A DNA stretch of 52,967 bases from Oscillospiraceae bacterium. GTDB taxonomy: Bacteria > Bacillota > Clostridia > Oscillospirales > Oscillospiraceae. Positions 6,731-48,420 of this stretch are shown in pieces. The notes under the pieces were generated by a model. That model was not told where the DNA came from. It was given only the letters and a program-made list of their open reading frames with translations, and searched no databases. Numbering within the stretch: the stretch's first letter is position 1; each line of letters starts with the position of its first letter. Both the position numbers and the translations under genes were made by a program. The stretch covers positions 1 to 52,967 of the forward strand of contig JAGASJ010000014.1 in NCBI GenBank assembly GCA_017621795.1, read 5' to 3'.

Positions 6731-8440
6731 TTACGATTTCTTTTTTCTCGCGATCAGCAAGGCGGCGCCCACACCGATGCCAAGGCCCAGGACGGCCACT
6801 GCAACCATAATGATCCACGAATTGGAATCGGAAGGCAATCTATCCTGCTTGTCGGTGTCAGCGGATACAGGCTTGGTTTCTGCCGGTATGATCTCCTCGC
6901 CGATGGTGTAGCCGCAGGTGGGGCACTTGCCCTCCTGTGTATCGTGGAGCATCCGGGTCTCGGCAAGCATCTCGCCGCAGGCGGTGCAGGTACGCCAGTG
7001 ATACTCCGCGTCAAAGCCCCAGTCGTCGGAGGTGGTATGTCCCAGGGGCGGAATGGTCACTGCCGCATCTGCAGGAAGGGGATTTTTGCCCTCTGCATCA
7101 GAGAACAGCACACCGCATCCGGAGCAGGTGTAATAGGCAGCCGTACCGGCATCCACGCAGGTGGGCTCTGCCGCAGGCACCAGGGTCAGCTCATGGGTGT
7201 GATTCTTTGCAGGGGTAATGATGTAATCGCACTGGGTGCAGATCTGAGGGGTGGTTTCCGTTGCCTCAGGTCCCGGCGTGTGGGGCTGCTGTTCATCGCA
7301 ACCCTTACAAACGGCGCACTGGTAGGCATGCCCCTTGGCATCGGCTACGTGGGGCTTGGGACTCCACTTGTGATCCTCTATGTCGCAGTGGGCACCGCAG
7401 ATGCTGCACTTGTGGAAATGATACATATCGCCACGAATGAGCCATTTGGAGGTATCCGGCAGGTGATAATCCTCACTTGCCTCCAAATAGGCATAGCCGC
7501 AAGCCGTGCAAACACCGGGATCTACACAGCTGGCCTTGCCGCCATAGTGATCCTCCTGCTCCAAAAAGTCCCCGCAGGAAGTGCAGGCTTTATAGTGGTA
7601 TGCGCCGGTGGTGCGCCATTCGGAGGGCGTATGGACGTGTGCGGTGTCCTCGGTAGCCGGGAAGACGTAGGATACAGTCAGGAAGCTATCATAATCCAGA
7701 CTTACCTTTGCAGATTCGCCGTTGACCCGCACCGTTGTCTGCTCGGTCATACGGTAACCTTCTTTGGGATGGATCAGGCAGTGGAATTTATAAGAGGTTT
7801 GGGGCGCAAAGACTTCTCCGGCAGCAGGATCCAGCTGCTCAGCGTTCGCGGCATTGTACCAGCTGATGCCGTTTAACATCTTGGGATCGGTGTATCCGTT
7901 AAAGTACACATTAGCCAGGACATAGGTCGCGGTATCGATCTTGCCGTAGAAGGGCTCGGCCCCCGCTGTGGGTGCGGGGATCGTCAGGTCCACAGATTTG
8001 ATCCATCCTTTTGCGGGAACAGGCGAAAAGCCGCAGGTCACTGTGACCATAGCCCAGGCCTTGTACTCGTAGGCCTTTGCTACATTCCCATCTTTATTGT
8101 TGACAGTAGCCGTCACAGCAGGGGTATTGTCATTGGCGGCTTTAAATTCATAGCCATCATCCGCCTCCACCCAAATGACCGCTTCATATTGGTGTCCCTC
8201 CCGGATCTTGTCACCGGGCTGCAGATAGCAGTCGTCGGTACGGTCGAACCACTCCACATCCCATACACTGTAGCCCCGTCCATTGCAGACAGCGCCAGCA
8301 GGCGCTTTTCCCGCCTCCGGATACTCCAGCGTCAGGGATATATGCTCAATGGTGGTTGCCGCAGACGCCTGCAGAGACAGTGCGCTTACAATTGGCAGCA
8401 GCAAAACTGCACACAGCAGCACACTTATCATTCGTTTCAT
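6731..8440 (-). CDS. Secreted surface protein with repeated CxxC zinc-finger-like units and membrane anchor
   Basis: 569 residues. A signal peptide (MKRMISVLLCAVLLLPIVSALSLQASA) is followed by a beta-rich N-terminal half. From about residue 270 come at least six short CxxC units (CTSCG, CTACG, CSICG, CAVCKGC, CTQC, CSGCG, CTACG, CPTCG), each preceded by a His. The helix IIMVAVAVLGLGIGVGAALLIARKKKS anchors the C terminus. These metal- or disulfide-forming units recur in surface proteins of gut Clostridia, but their role is unknown. It is 61 bases downstream of a lipoprotein gene in the same operon. Confidence 0.72.
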   Translation of the reverse strand: MKRMISVLLCAVLLLPIVSALSLQASAATTIEHISLTLEYPEAGKAPAGAVCNGRGYSVWDVEWFDRTDDCYLQPGDKIREGHQYEAVIWVEADDGYEFKAANDNTPAVTATVNNKDGNVAKAYEYKAWAMVTVTCGFSPVPAKGWIKSVDLTIPAPTAGAEPFYGKIDTATYVLANVYFNGYTDPKMLNGISWYNAANAEQLDPAAGEVFAPQTSYKFHCLIHPKEGYRMTEQTTVRVNGESAKVSLDYDSFLTVSYVFPATEDTAHVHTPSEWRTTGAYHYKACTSCGDFLEQEDHYGGKASCVDPGVCTACGYAYLEASEDYHLPDTSKWLIRGDMYHFHKCSICGAHCDIEDHKWSPKPHVADAKGHAYQCAVCKGCDEQQPHTPGPEATETTPQICTQCDYIITPAKNHTHELTLVPAAEPTCVDAGTAAYYTCSGCGVLFSDAEGKNPLPADAAVTIPPLGHTTSDDWGFDAEYHWRTCTACGEMLAETRMLHDTQEGKCPTCGYTIGEEIIPAETKPVSADTDKQDRLPSDSNSWIIMVAVAVLGLGIGVGAALLIARKKKS

Positions 8441-9790: not shown

Positions 9791-9892
9791 TGTTATTTTC
9801 TTGATGGGGTTCAGGGGGCGGATATTATCTAACTGCATTTTTTACAAAAGTTGTTTTGCCATTTTCAGGACATCCAATTGTAATTACGCACT

Positions 9893-10210
9893 TCATTTAT
9901 TGTTATCCTTTGCAGTGTTAATAGAGGCAATCAACACACGACGAATCGTTCCGCATTGATTGCGTAGCTCAACTGCCATTTCTCTGCTCAGAATATCGGA
10001 TTTCGCAAACAGTTCCAGCCAATATTCCGTTTCATAACACTCTTTTAAAGCAACCTGTAATTTAGCAACAAAATCAGACTTACCGTGCGCATAGTTTGCT
10101 TCGTGAATGTTTGCACCAATAGAGGTTGCAGAACGCTCCAGTTGATTCACAAGAGAATAATGACCTTTGATCGTTTCGCAGAGTTTAATGATCTTAATAG
10201 CGAAATCCAT
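9893..10210 (-). CDS. Four-helix bundle protein (S23 / 23S rRNA-IVS family, Avd-like fold), start interrupted
   Basis: 105 residues from MDFAIKIIKLCE. NQLERSATSIGANIHEANYAHGKSDFVAKLQVALKECYETEYWLEL is the family core, giving four amphipathic helices. The family includes proteins coded in 23S rRNA intervening sequences and Avd, the nucleic-acid-binding pentamer of diversity-generating retroelements. The normal family start appears to be the ATG at 10238-10240. That start has a GAGGTGAGG site and reads MKENKLVE, but codon 9 is TGA (10214-10216), followed by Ser and the internal ATG used here. Full-length expression would need readthrough or restart. The upstream region is hairpin array 1. Confidence 0.8.
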   Translation of the reverse strand: MDFAIKIIKLCETIKGHYSLVNQLERSATSIGANIHEANYAHGKSDFVAKLQVALKECYETEYWLELFAKSDILSREMAVELRNQCGTIRRVLIASINTAKDNNK

Positions 10211-10274
10211 AGATCATTCAACGAGCTTATTTTCTTTCATTATCCTCACCTCTACAAATAATATAGCATATTGA

Positions 10275-10446
10275 ATGAAATATTGCTACGCAATATGAAA
10301 TAATCCTTTGGATTATGAAATATTTTGCCTTAGCGGCAAAATATGAAATAAAATAAATCCCTCATACGCCGCAGCGTATTTCATAGCATCAGCTATTTCA
10401 TAACGCGAAGCGTTATTTCACAAATCCCGTAAGGGATTTATTTCAT
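10275..10446. repeat. Hairpin array 1 (separator ATGAAAT/ATTTCAT)
   Basis: Four ATGAAAT words (10275, 10295, 10315, 10343) are followed by four inverted ATTTCAT words (10378, 10395, 10415 with a C at the last base, 10440). Between neighbouring words is a perfect short hairpin with its own stem: ATTGC/GCAAT, AATCC/GGATT, ATTTTGCC/GGCAAAAT, ATACGC/GCGTAT, AGC/GCT, AACGC/GCGTT, AATCCC/GGGATT. Several words are spaced exactly 20 bases apart. At the turning point is the unpaired word AAATCCCTC (10355-10363). It lies immediately upstream of the four-helix-bundle gene and codes for nothing. Confidence 0.85.
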
Positions 10447-10690
10447 TAAAAAAGCACCTGCAAAAGCAAGTGCTTTTTTAAGGTCGCCCTCTTCGAGTCC
10501 CATTAGAACCCCATAAAAAAAGCAGACCCAAAGGTCTGCTCTGTAAATGCGCTGTTTCCTGTGATAGATGCGCCTGACGGCGCATGGGACTCTCCCCCGG
10601 GCTAAAAATTGCTCGCCAGCTCTCAATTTTTCCCCATCCTTCGGATGGGTCGCCCTCTTCGAGTCCCATTAGCACCCCATAAAAAAAGCA
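10446..10690. repeat. Duplicated inverted tRNA-tail/terminator block
   Basis: A 43-base direct repeat with one mismatch (10482-10524 and 10648-10690) contains TTCGAGTCCCATTA and ACCCCATAAAAAAAGCA. This copies the 3' end of the tRNA-His gene plus the start of its terminator, in inverted orientation. Each copy abuts a terminator-like hairpin (10446-10480, 10515-10541, 10681-10714). Between the copies are more short hairpins (GCGCC/GGCGC, CCCATCC/GGATGGG, AAAATTG/CAATTTT). It appears built from repeated inverted copying of the tRNA tail. Confidence 0.75.
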
Positions 10691-10714
10691 CCTGCGTTTG
10701 CAGGTGCTTTTTTT
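10681..10714 (-). terminator. tRNA operon terminator
   Basis: Stem AAGCACCTGC/GCAGGTGCTT with a 4-base loop and T runs on both sides, immediately after the CCA of tRNA-His on the minus strand. Confidence 0.85.
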
Positions 10715-10715
10715 A

Positions 10716-10792
10716 TGGGGTGGGTAATGGGACTCGAACCCACAACACCTGGAACCACAATCCAGTGCTCTGCCAATTGAACTATACCCACC
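10716..10792 (-). tRNA. tRNA-His (GTG)
   Basis: 77 bases including an encoded CCA. The anticodon loop TTGTGGT gives GTG. It has the extra G at -1 opposite C73 that is diagnostic of tRNA-His, and the T loop GGTTCGAGTCC is intact. It is the last gene of the Gly-Arg-His operon, separated from tRNA-Arg by hairpin array 2. Confidence 0.96.
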
Positions 10793-10807
10793 ATATTTGA
10801 AGTTATG

Positions 10808-10978
10808 AGTTATATTAAATCCTTATGGATTTAGTTATATTTTCTGCTAACACAGAAAGTTATATTATATTCGCTCTAACTGCCCGCAGGCAATATAACT
10901 TGCGAAGCAAATATCACTGTCGAAGACAATATAACTCGCCGCAAGGCGAATATAACTGAAAAACGCCTGGCGTTTTTC
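10808..10978. repeat. Hairpin array 2 (separator AGTTATAT/ATATAACT)
   Basis: Three AGTTATAT words (10808, 10833, 10858), with a partial one at 10801, are followed by inverted ATATAACT words (10893, 10911 as ATATCACT, 10929, 10950). The intervening hairpins have different stems: AAATCC/GGATTT, TTTCTG/CAGAAA, TGCC/GGCA, TTGC/GCAA, TGTC/GACA, CGCC/GGCG, and GAAAAACG/CGTTTTTC at the end. The architecture is the same as arrays 1 and 3 with a different separator. It lies inside the tRNA operon, so it is probably transcribed with it and must be removed or tolerated during tRNA processing. Confidence 0.85.
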
Positions 10979-10979
10979 T

Positions 10980-11056
10980 TGGCACGCCAGGAGGGACTCG
11001 AACCCCCGACCTACTGCTTAGAAGGCAGTTGCTCTATCCGGCTGAGCTACTGGCGC
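10980..11056 (-). tRNA. tRNA-Arg (TCT)
   Basis: 77 bases with encoded CCA. The acceptor GCGCCAG pairs with CTGGCGT (one G-T pair). The anticodon loop CTTCTAA gives TCT, and the T loop GGTTCGAGTCC is present. Second gene of the operon, 7 bases after tRNA-Gly. Confidence 0.96.
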
Positions 11057-11063
11057 ATTTCTA

Positions 11064-11137
11064 TGGAGCGGGTGACGGGAATCGGACCCGCGTATCCAGC
11101 TTGGAAGGCTGGTGTTCTACCATTGAACTACACCCGC
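11064..11137 (-). tRNA. tRNA-Gly (TCC)
   Basis: 74 bases with encoded CCA. The acceptor GCGGGTG pairs with CACCCGC. The anticodon loop CTTCCAA gives TCC. First gene of the operon, about 30 bases after the -10 box. Confidence 0.96.
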
Positions 11138-11168
11138 AAATCCTATTGCATAACGTATCAGCCATAGA

Positions 11169-11197
11169 ATCTTAGCATAGAAAAGGCTTCCTGTCAA
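11169..11197 (-). promoter_or_regulatory. tRNA operon promoter
   Basis: Consensus TTGACA (11192-11197), 17-base spacer, TAAGAT (11169-11174). The -35 overlaps the stop codon of the HAD phosphatase gene upstream, so the two units are tightly packed. Confidence 0.85.
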
Positions 11198-12042
11198 GGC
11201 TCATTTTTGAGAATCTCAGGGATTTTATTGAGAATCACGTCTGCAACAGCGCCTTCGCTGCAGCTGCAAACGTTTTCATATTGGTCTGCGACCACACCGT
11301 CTGCAGGACAGTAGGCATAATCTGCACCGTCCAGCATGGTCTTATCGTTGTCGGCATCTCCCACGCATACCAAAATGGACTTGCCCAGCTCTTTTTGCAG
11401 ATCTCTGGCGGCCCGCAGCTTGGACACCCCTTTTGCGTGCACATCAATGATCCGCGGTGCGGCAAAAAACACATCCACCTTGTCACCGTACATCCGTTCG
11501 ATGGTTTTTCTTGCCTGCGTAAAGCGGTCTATTTCCTCCTGCGGCCCCTCAAAAAAGCCGCCTACGGAATTTTCATAAACCTTGCCGAACAGCGAAAACT
11601 TCAAAAACGGGCCCACATCGGTATAGGGAACGGCTTCCGCCCAATCCCAGCCGATGGCCTCGTAGCAGCGGATATAGCTTTGACGGGGCTTGTACAAATA
11701 GTGATTTTGCGCACCCTGCAGCTCTAAATTCATCTCCGGAAACAGGTTCGACACTGTTTCCAGTGTCTCCCACAGCGGCAGGTCGATGGGCACCAGCTTT
11801 TCCAGCCTTCCGTTTTGGTAGCGGGCACTGCCGTTCATCAGCAGCAGCGGCGCATTCACCGGCAGAGTGTTCAGGTACTTTTTAAAGGTGTTGGTACTGC
11901 GTCCCGTGTTTACGGTAAATGTACCCCCCTGTGCCATAAAATATTCGATCGCCTCTATATTTTTCTGAGGAATGGTAGAGTCGGTGGCGGTGAGGGTACG
12001 GTCAAAATCCACGGTCAGCAGAATATCGGAAAAATCAGCCAT
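11194..12042 (-). CDS. HAD-superfamily (Cof-type) phosphatase
   Basis: 282 residues. Motif I is VDFDRTLT, with D12 the expected nucleophile and D14 the acid/base. Motif II-type residues occur near TVNTGRS, and motif IV is CVGDADNDKTML. The large C2-type cap between about 90 and 200 fits Cof/YidA hydrolases, which remove phosphate from small metabolites such as sugar phosphates and pyridoxal phosphate. The chosen ATG (MADFSDILLT) follows the rluD stop by 5 bases, and the longer frame overlaps rluD. It is third in an lspA-rluD-HAD operon. Substrate unknown. Confidence 0.88.
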   Translation of the reverse strand: MADFSDILLTVDFDRTLTATDSTIPQKNIEAIEYFMAQGGTFTVNTGRSTNTFKKYLNTLPVNAPLLLMNGSARYQNGRLEKLVPIDLPLWETLETVSNLFPEMNLELQGAQNHYLYKPRQSYIRCYEAIGWDWAEAVPYTDVGPFLKFSLFGKVYENSVGGFFEGPQEEIDRFTQARKTIERMYGDKVDVFFAAPRIIDVHAKGVSKLRAARDLQKELGKSILVCVGDADNDKTMLDGADYAYCPADGVVADQYENVCSCSEGAVADVILNKIPEILKNEP

Positions 12043-27054: not shown

Positions 27055-27255
27055 TCATTTCCGGGTAGGTTTCACATTGGCAGCAGGTGTAATACTGCCG
27101 TCGATCGTACCATTGGCTTCCTCAAAAGATTTGATGTTCTCCCGAATCAAAACCAACACCTGACTGTTGACACTTCTGCCCTCATAATCTGCAATATAGG
27201 CAATCTTATTCAGCATTTCTTCTTCAATCCGAATCGATACACTCTTAACAGACAT
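27055..27255 (-). CDS. Ribbon-helix-helix (Arc/CopG-type) DNA-binding protein
   Basis: 66 residues from MSVKSVSIRIEEE. A beta strand SVSIRI is followed by helices EEMLNKIAYIADYEG and SVNSQVLVLIRENIKSFEEANG, the ribbon-helix-helix pattern. The ATG at 27255 has a GGAG site 8 bases away; the frame extends three codons further without one. It ends in a short tail (TPAANVKPTRK). It is divergent from the SLOG gene with about 105 bases between them, so it may regulate itself and that gene. No toxin is adjacent in the usual antitoxin position. Confidence 0.75.
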   Translation of the reverse strand: MSVKSVSIRIEEEMLNKIAYIADYEGRSVNSQVLVLIRENIKSFEEANGTIDGSITPAANVKPTRK

Positions 27256-30908: not shown

Positions 30909-32585
30909 TTACAATTTTAACAATTTTGCGATCTTGTCGCCCTTAGGCAGCAGCAGGCAGTCCTCTTTTGTGATGGCCTTGCATACGACCACCAGCACAA
31001 AATACGCCACAACGCCCACCAAAATCGGCACACCGCAAAGCAGCATATTGCTGGTGATGCCTGCGATGTTTACCATCAGCCAGTAGACCCCGTACACCAC
31101 CGCGCCCATCAGTGCCGCAGGCAGAAGGGGCCGGAGCATATTGCGCAGCAGCTTGGGCTTTTGGGGTACGACCTTCCGGATGCTGAGCAGATTCAGCGCG
31201 CTGACCGACAGATAGCACAGTGCAGAGCACACCGGTACTGCCAAAATGCCCACATTGGGATTGCCCACCAGCACATACATCAGCCCCAGCTTTACACCGC
31301 CGCAAATCAGGGTGTTGATCACCGGGATATGGGCTTTTCCGTGGGACTGGAGCAGGACGGTGGTAAACATGGTGGCGGTATACAGACATACCGCGCCGCC
31401 CATAACCGTCATCATTACGGTTGCCAGTGCCAGCTTTTCTCCCCCGTAGCCGCCCAGCATTCCCATGATCGGGCCCGCCAGCACCGCAAGCCCCACCGAA
31501 CAGGGCAGTGCCAAAAGCCCGGTGATACGGGACGCGGATTCCTCCGTTTCACGAACACTTTTGTGATCACCCACCGTCAAAAATGCCGTAATTGCCGGCA
31601 GCACGCTGGTGTTAATGGGGATGATAAAGGCACAGGGCATATTGAAGATGGTATAGCCGAAGTTATAGATGCCCTTCATACCGGAGGCCATCAGGGAGAA
31701 GTGATTTTCAGGCGTCCAATCCTTCAGCGCCCGAACCTCCTCTTCCAGCTCCGGCACTAAATTCTGTGCATAGGTGCCGGATGCCAGCAGCTCCTCCAGC
31801 CGATCCATATAAATGCCGATCTCCAGCACATTCAAAAGCTGCATTCCTGCAGAGCCGATGGTAATGGGAATGGCAATGGCCAGCAGCTTTTTGGTGGTAA
31901 CGGCGAAGCGCTCCACCTCCTCGGCAGAGACAGACAGCTCCCGATATGCGGGGCGGAACTTGCCGTACAGATAAAACGCGGAGATCAGGCAGCTGACTGT
32001 CACGCCCAAGATGGCGCCGCCTGCCGCCCAGGAGACCTTCCCGGTCAGCTTCATCAGCCCGTAAGCCGCGCTCAAGCCCACCACCAATTTACAGAACGCC
32101 TCCAAAACCTGCGACACGGCGGTGGGATTCATATTGCCCTGCCCCTGGAAGAAGCCCCGATAGATGCTCAAATAGCCCATCAGTACCGCACAGGGCGCCA
32201 AGCACAAAATTGCCGCCCACGCACCGGGCTGTTCAAAGCTGGATGCCAGCCTGGTACAGAAAATGCCCATGATCAGCGCCGCAACCAAGCCCAGTCCCAA
32301 AAACAGCATTCTGCTGACCTTGTAGATCTGCCGCACCCGATTATGCTGACCCAGGGAATAGGCCTGGCTGATCATCCGGCTCATAGCAATGGGCAGACCG
32401 GCAGTGGCAATGGTAAGCAGCAGGGTGTAGATATCATAGGCGGTATTGAAATAGGCAAAGCCCACGTCGCCGATGATGCCCTTCAGGGGAATCTTGTAGA
32501 TGGCGCCGATGACCTTCACCACCGCCACAGACAGCGACAGCACCGCCGCACCCTGCAGGAAGTTTTGTTTTTTAGAAGCAGCCAT
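30909..32585 (-). CDS. SpoVB/MurJ-type lipid-linked oligosaccharide flippase
   Basis: 558 residues with about 14 membrane helices of the MVF/polysaccharide exporter superfamily. The N-terminal FLQGAAVLSLSVAVVKVIGAIYKIPLKGIIGD and GLPIAMSRMIS motifs are typical of SpoVB/YabM. These proteins flip lipid-linked cell-wall precursors; SpoVB is needed for the spore cortex, and related members act in vegetative growth. Hup and rqcP lie downstream. An AGAGGAG site precedes the ATG. Whether it is the sporulation or the general flippase cannot be told. Confidence 0.9.
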   Translation of the reverse strand: MAASKKQNFLQGAAVLSLSVAVVKVIGAIYKIPLKGIIGDVGFAYFNTAYDIYTLLLTIATAGLPIAMSRMISQAYSLGQHNRVRQIYKVSRMLFLGLGLVAALIMGIFCTRLASSFEQPGAWAAILCLAPCAVLMGYLSIYRGFFQGQGNMNPTAVSQVLEAFCKLVVGLSAAYGLMKLTGKVSWAAGGAILGVTVSCLISAFYLYGKFRPAYRELSVSAEEVERFAVTTKKLLAIAIPITIGSAGMQLLNVLEIGIYMDRLEELLASGTYAQNLVPELEEEVRALKDWTPENHFSLMASGMKGIYNFGYTIFNMPCAFIIPINTSVLPAITAFLTVGDHKSVRETEESASRITGLLALPCSVGLAVLAGPIMGMLGGYGGEKLALATVMMTVMGGAVCLYTATMFTTVLLQSHGKAHIPVINTLICGGVKLGLMYVLVGNPNVGILAVPVCSALCYLSVSALNLLSIRKVVPQKPKLLRNMLRPLLPAALMGAVVYGVYWLMVNIAGITSNMLLCGVPILVGVVAYFVLVVVCKAITKEDCLLLPKGDKIAKLLKL

Positions 32586-48224: not shown

Positions 48225-48420
48225 ATCGATATAAATCCCTGACGGGATTTTCGATATTTCCCTTTGGGAATCGATATATGCTTCGCACTCGATATGCCCT
48301 GCGGGGCAAGAGGGATTTATATCGAACTCGTTGCCGCAAGGCAACATATCGCAATTCTGCAACGCAGAATTATATCGATTTTGCAAAGCAAAAATATCGA
48401 GCCGCAAAGCGGCATATCGA
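48225..48420. repeat. Hairpin array 3 (separator TCGATAT/ATATCGA)
   Basis: Four TCGATAT words (48226, 48251, 48271, 48289) are followed by five ATATCGA words (48319, 48346 as ATATCGC, 48372, 48394, 48414). The intervening perfect hairpins have distinct stems: AAATCCC/GGGATTT, TTCCC/GGGAA, TGC/GCA, GCCC/GGGC, GTTGCC/GGCAAC, AATTCTG/CAGAATT, TTTTGC/GCAAAA, GCCGC/GCGGC. At the turning point is GAGGGATTT (48310-48318), the reverse complement of the AAATCCCTC centre of array 1. It lies just after the TraB terminator; 48426-48500 holds nothing else identifiable. Confidence 0.85.

Follow-up and report, generated by a model that had tools for sequence, protein, structure and literature searches.

A row of short hairpins separated by a seven-letter word, with the word reversing its orientation halfway along, raises the question of what kind of element it is and what ties it to the gene beside it. 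The window analyzed here is a stretch of 52,967 nt from an Oscillospiraceae bacterium (contig JAGASJ010000014.1), and the row, array 1, lies on its minus strand at about 10263-10452 (about 190 bp for the whole mirrored element). The preliminary description had counted four ATGAAAT words followed by four ATTTCAT words. The four left words are exact (starting at 10275, 10295, 10315 and 10343), whereas the right side has three ATTTCAT (10378, 10395 and 10440) and one variant, ATTTCAC, at 10415. A hairpin with a different stem had also been claimed for every interval; seven hairpins with different stems could indeed be parsed, placed between and beside the words, but the middle interval also contains AAAATAAATCCCTC, which is able to base-pair with the right arm at its outer end. 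The stems often extend into the words, so that hardly more than GAA/TTC is left unpaired. Unlike CRISPR repeats, which keep one orientation and enclose unrelated spacers, the words flip mid-array and the inserts are palindromes. In 1000 dinucleotide-preserving shuffles of 10000-11200, the array detector found no mirrored arm pair and any single arm in only three.

Array 1 is followed by a leader (10241-10262, minus strand) that leads to the start codon used by relatives of an S23 (23S_rRNA_IVP, PF05635) gene at 9893-10240, also on the minus strand. The match to PF05635 scores 82.9 bits against a cut-off of 33.8. With the relatives' start at 10240, codon 9 is an in-frame TGA, and the ORF is open from a later ATG (9893-10210). 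The ATG of a cargo gene remnant (9825-9896, minus strand) overlaps the S23 stop in ATGA, and its 23 codons resemble the start of a P-loop cargo protein at a related locus, L155. The unit in the window is thus probably decayed, with an early stop in S23, a truncated cargo gene and an intact array. The outer end of the array is capped by a terminator-like palindrome (10446-10481, minus strand) like those at the tRNA loci of relatives, and a same-strand tRNA-His (10716-10791, minus strand) lies upstream. A copy of array 1 with the same end points occurs on contig C46 of this genome (96.8% match over the 190 bp of 10263-10452), and the S23 search found no gene on that contig.

The right, "closed" arm of array 1 (10373-10448, minus strand) matches the Rfam family Gut-1 (RF01706) at 63.1 bits, above the family threshold of 50 bits in covariance-model score. 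The left, "open" arm (10269-10326, plus strand) matches on the opposite strand at 48.1 bits, just under that threshold. Array 2 (10800-10979, minus strand), with words GTTATAT/ATATAAC and a short palindrome, sits between tRNA-His and a tRNA-Arg (10980-11056, minus strand) whose CCA end directly precedes the palindrome; its Gut-1 arm (10888-10958) scores 55.4 bits. Array 3 (48226-48420, plus strand) has words CGATAT/ATATCG and a closed arm on the plus strand, and belongs to the array family of contig C18. The words thus differ from array to array within one genome. Genome-wide there are 40 matches to Gut-1 at E ≤ 1, of which 14 exceed the family threshold, and many form opposite-strand pairs: Rfam Gut-1 models one arm of what is actually a unit of two opposite-strand arms. 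In the family of the window, Gut-1 occurs in 25 of 150 genomes and 21 of 106 genera. A survey of 61 genomes of the genus found Gut-1 in 31 and S23 in 41, with both in 30 (Fisher p = 3e-7).

The preliminary description had linked array and gene and had named compensatory stem variation as a check; both held up, the association for the S23 clade of the window. We scanned contigs with the S23 protein that neighbors array 1 and kept the best-matching 80 loci, mostly from Clostridia or Oscillospiraceae and many from ruminant guts. Using a detector that takes no account of S23, we found an array arm in the 600 bp upstream of the gene at 60 of the 66 loci with enough sequence, and downstream at 6 of 73. 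The gene and the near arm tend to be about 65 or 87 bp apart. In all, 124 arms were counted in 90,687 bases within 600 bp of S23 and 9 in 296,328 bases beyond 1500 bp, an enrichment of about 45-fold. Four words per arm is the usual number (76 of 117 detected hairpin-class arms), and GAAAT is the word detected in 74 of 122 hairpin arrays, with none in 41 and few others. Of 29 candidate arrays, 26 entered a first alignment (A1) and 19 a second (A2), the remainder having shifted or different stems. Across the 19 arrays 95.8% of cells pair; 8 base pairs and 20 cells are changed on both sides, against 3.0 and 5.9 in shuffles, and one of the five measures of covariation, further pair types, is no higher than in shuffles. 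It is plausible that the array is a putative ligand or substrate of the S23 protein.

Pairwise homology between these loci delimits the unit. Its right ends fall within -20 to +19 nt of the end of the S23 match for 5,294 of 5,479 HSPs, which are not independent of one another, as is equally true of the left ends, 2,515 of 4,366 of which fall 230-349 nt upstream, with 2 farther out than 600. The left ends are spread out, and many HSPs span the gene alone. In 41 of 79 best-matching loci S23 and the following ORF overlap, stop codon on start codon, and many have an AAGGAG-like site inside the 3′ end of S23. The ORFs that follow are diverse: a Pfam scan of 50 of the 79 loci, retained after a length, offset and closure filter, found hits to 32 families among the 50 proteins, no family being hit by more than four of them, among them GNAT, NUDIX, AAA, WapI-like, HAD, SfsA, ASCH and MazG.

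The other landmark is a tRNA gene. A same-strand tRNA ends within 700 nt upstream of S23 at 56 of the 67 best-matching loci with at least 500 nt upstream, and any tRNA within 700 nt downstream at 1 of 71. Many kinds of tRNA serve as the upstream neighbor. Between the CCA and the array most loci have, by eye, a near-perfect palindrome ending in a run of T. Gut-1 loci chosen without regard to S23 have a tRNA within 300 nt in 16 of 25 cases, a count that leaves out three loci of unknown strand (L096-L098). The comparisons show the order tRNA gene, terminator palindrome, hairpin array (about 190 bp), leader, S23 and cargo.

Several observations speak to movement. A related whole cargo is found behind tRNA-Arg at L125 and tRNA-Leu at L157 (73.5% over 1145 bp), and two further pairs of related cargo, cut by contig ends, also lie behind different tRNAs (L120, Leu, and L162, Arg, 76.5% over 871 bp; L127, Leu, and L130, Gly, 89.9% over 655 bp). 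Arrays or units are chained at L125, L157, L176 and L192 and on contig C18. The gap between tRNA-Arg and tRNA-His, compared across 25 genomes (5 of 30 HAD loci, which lack both tRNAs, are omitted), is short in 15 (13-60 nt), holds other inserts in 9 (136-272 nt) and holds array 2 in the genome of the window. Flanks read by eye have no clear target-site duplication. Genome comparison shows a unit that runs from the array to the S23 stop, with varied cargo, a position behind tRNAs, chained copies and presence or absence at orthologous sites.

The tRNA loci hold other short elements. By eye, the tRNA-Arg/tRNA-His gaps of L207 and L228 contain heptamers, and even the 46-nt gap of L200 has a few. 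A second short element at tRNA 3′ ends, GGACTCGAA...CGAGTCCCT...CCA, duplicates roughly the final 20 nt of the tRNA; in the tRNA-Arg/tRNA-His gap it occurs at L206, L215, L216, L219, L220, L224, L226 and L228, and inverted pieces related to it lie within 10482-10690 of the window, downstream of tRNA-His. Self-complementary stretches at L102 (7455-7528), at L114 (9332-9404) and in the window (10658-10738) contain an inverted copy of the tRNA 3′ end past the terminator palindrome, and those at L102 and L114 directly precede GTTATAT arrays. Loci L189, L190, L194 and L195 share a similar tail after the cargo (GCATGG...CCATCATC...CACGGA...GTTTTTG), with tRNA-Trp or tRNA-Gln in three.

Beyond the close relatives, the arrays take a simpler form. 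Genus and phylum samples were assembled from the best-scoring S23 gene per genome, with at most 30 loci kept, and tandem arrays were called with TRF, which detects clear arrays only. Among 29 best-scoring S23 genes of the genus, a tRNA lies upstream in 4 and a hairpin array in 4. The tRNA cassette is therefore a single sub-type, and the figure of 60 of 66 applies to close relatives of the gene in the window. Immediately upstream, the sequence has a significant 7-nt periodicity at 23 of these 29 genes and at 0 of 27 controls. Tandem heptamers flank the gene on both sides in 21 of 29 and are reverse complements with at most one mismatch in 20; such mirrored loci span 389-472 bp, with arms of mostly about four to five words. 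In a plasmid sample of 15 S23 loci listed among 32 matching records (cyanobacteria, Treponema, Bernardetia and Monoglobus), heptamers flank S23 on both sides at all 15, and at 13 of them the two sides mirror each other at up to one mismatch, the nearest arrays of L233 and L234 not being mirror images at that limit. As a control, 35 genes in 50 kb of one Nostoc plasmid include none with heptamers on both sides and 7 with heptamers on at least one. In the phylum sample (n = 30) heptamers occur on both sides in 16 and are mirrored in 13, while 14 of 30 do not have both sides, and TRF found no period-7 array on either side in 7 of the 30 best-scoring loci. These samples show that S23 genes often lie between mirrored arrays of 7-nt words, even in unrelated bacteria, and the hairpin array appears to be an elaboration of this wider pattern.

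The purH-purD interval, surveyed in 29 genomes (1 of 30 purD loci has no purH and was left out), captures the heptamer form in several states. S23 with heptamers is present in 5 genomes, with gaps of 461-471 nt. Heptamers occur without S23 in 5 others, with gaps of 102-151 nt and only one arm called by TRF in two, and 19 have neither (10-385 nt). Gene-less copies at other sites, a hallmark of MITEs, are therefore found both here and in the copy on contig C46. Words are shared, with at most one mismatch, by 7 of 7 S23 pairs at 75% identity or more and by 24 of 246 pairs below. The seven pairs all read as purH-site elements, and shared descent can therefore explain the shared word.

We think it rather probable that a small mobile gene cassette begins, at its 5′ end, with array 1, and that in this cassette the S23 protein binds the words and the mirrored arms mark the unit. 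The only solved S23 relative found by sequence is 2rld; from the five chains in that entry we infer a pentamer, which could bind the repeated words with perhaps one word per subunit. The hairpins between the words would space them or expose them single-stranded. The mirrored arms, as DNA ends, as a folded stem or as both, may mark the unit for copying or joining, and the enzyme for that step would be supplied in trans. We place the array among the S23 (IVS-like) elements as a new form, and there is a real chance that it points to a much broader class of mobile DNA; mirrored heptamers framing S23 suggest an overlooked type. A still wider reading is possible, and we offer it tentatively: S23 proteins would be word-specific binders of nucleic acid that maintain mirrored heptamers, forming an unrecognized class of mobile elements in at least four phyla (Bacillota, Cyanobacteriota, Spirochaetota and Bacteroidota) that takes in 23S rRNA IVSs, some of the heptamer repeats of cyanobacteria and the tRNA-parked, integron-like cassettes of gut Clostridia, whose hairpin arrays are filed as Gut-1.

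The arms might instead act in transcripts, as a long stem around S23 of the kind that RNase III cuts in 23S IVSs, with Gut-1 a piece of it. By folding around S23, the stem would let the unit sit harmlessly in operons or behind tRNAs. This RNA-level explanation seems to us rather unlikely, and the evidence falls on both sides of it. One published 23S IVS has, in the accessible part of its description, a 28-bp terminal stem, RNase III cleavage and heptameric repeats upstream of the S23 ORF (PMC4990558). RNA folding of 10266-10447 gives -61.6 kcal/mol (z = -6.75; z = -5.89 for the DNA fold), and in an RNA fold of the L247 element the arms pair up as a stem. The first stem strand can pair with either the adjacent strand or the array center in 70 of 70 parsed loci over at least 6 nt and in 65 of 70 over at least 8 nt, and it does so over several different sequences; two mutually exclusive folds of the array seem to be kept. 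G-T exceeded A-C mismatches 20:7 in S23-sense stems (p = 0.019), as expected of RNA, but the excess weakened with more arrays (24:13, p = 0.10). The alignment itself counts 13 G-T against 21 A-C, including column pair 111/133, which fails in 15 of 19 rows and is read as lying outside the stem. In the ATTTCA reading direction, GNA accounts for 200 of 339 triloops and TNC for none, and GNRA for 107 of 248 tetraloops. The arms are thus alike when read from opposite strands, and one transcript would present the two arms differently, which fits a two-fold symmetric DNA site better. In addition, the second unit of L125 has by eye a promoter-like TTGAAA-N17-TATAAT past its array, which would exclude the array from the S23 mRNA.

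That the arms are a stand-alone small RNA, as Gut-1 is listed in Rfam, is improbable. The 14 threshold-passing matches among 40 in this genome and the covarying stems agree with it, and the table of Weinberg 2010, in the part of that report available to us, rates Gut-1 "Y" as an RNA and "n" as cis-regulatory (PMC2864571). Set against this is the nearly fixed position 5′ of S23 and behind tRNA terminators. The stand-alone candidate was rejected, as its model spans a single arm whose partner is found on the other strand. A Y1 (RAYT-type) transposase that moves REP/BIME-like palindromes would also yield short, dispersed palindromes in inverted pairs, some as array-only copies. We consider this explanation very improbable, given words that vary between arrays. 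Y1/RAYT mobilization was rejected as a candidate, with no match to PF01797 (Y1_Tnp) in G000, the genome of the window, or in G001, G002, G003 and G011, all of which bear Gut-1. Chance or slippage, by which simple repeats happen to adjoin S23, is extremely improbable overall. Some of the genomes are rich in period-7 repeats (34 others in 78,312 bases; 12 in 50 kb), yet the two-sided heptamers at S23 against none at 35 control genes, the shuffles without mirrored arms and the compensatory stem changes refute it as a general explanation; single loci may have arisen by chance.

The mobile cassette reading can be set beside known systems. Cyanobacterial STRRs are tandem 7-nt words in intergenic DNA, and in Nostoc the SDRs described by Elhai in 2008 are reportedly small hairpins with compensatory changes embedded among heptamers; these SDRs are not known to be tied to S23, tRNA genes or cargo. 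Integron cassettes likewise combine a hairpin-rich site with a small variable cargo ORF, chained units and similar kinds of cargo, but here many units carry S23, lie behind tRNA terminators and are scattered over contigs. The DGR accessory protein Avd shares the four-helix bundle with S23. TAACTGA heptamer repeats are tandem 7-nt words in intergenic DNA, including that of cyanobacteria and Bacteroidetes, in a report whose accessible main text has no mention of S23 or four helix bundle (PMC4679880); here, the heptamers frame S23 genes. REP, BIME and REPIN elements share dispersed, inverted palindrome pairs, in the portion of the source at hand (PMC3116915), and differ in that several array-bearing genomes have no Y1 transposase match and the words vary. 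The 23S IVSs share the protein family, complementary ends and, in the one IVS mentioned above, heptamers before the ORF, whereas the present units are intergenic or behind tRNAs and carry inter-word hairpins and cargo. An Rfam search of the window returned tRNAs and Gut-1 only, with no 23S rRNA, and an S23 ORF enclosed by complementary ends is seen in the tandem-heptamer relatives, while the window has both arms 5′ of S23. The accessible part of the original report describes Gut-1 as a motif of non-coding RNA drawn only from human gut sequences (PMC2864571). Single array arms exceed its Rfam threshold, but here each is half of a two-armed unit that is linked to S23 and to tRNA loci, and this context, as read from sequence, argues against Gut-1 as an independent non-coding RNA. 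Our literature search, with subscription papers mostly outside it, found no link between S23 and heptamers beyond the IVSs.

The cassette reading connects four unexplained items: the S23 protein, the Gut-1 motif, bacterial heptamer repeats and cassette-like cargo behind tRNAs. If S23 binds its own seven-letter word, it becomes possible to test where heptamer repeats and rRNA intervening sequences come from, and a compact system for shuffling genes in gut bacteria would have been overlooked.

Some minor observations concern S23 and heptamers in other settings. Two phage-labeled contigs from human feces (L236 and L237) carry S23 behind an array-like leader, with a detector match in L236 only and a tRNA 3′ end and terminator ahead of the leader in L237; both may be bacterial pieces. 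The Nostoc plasmid L246 has mirrored-looking, miniature-like period-7 pairs with no S23 between them at 8359-8431, 27103-27171 and 32335-32438. In a Nostoc plasmid (L244, 1102-2858), an S23 gene lies between genes annotated as cas2 and cas1.
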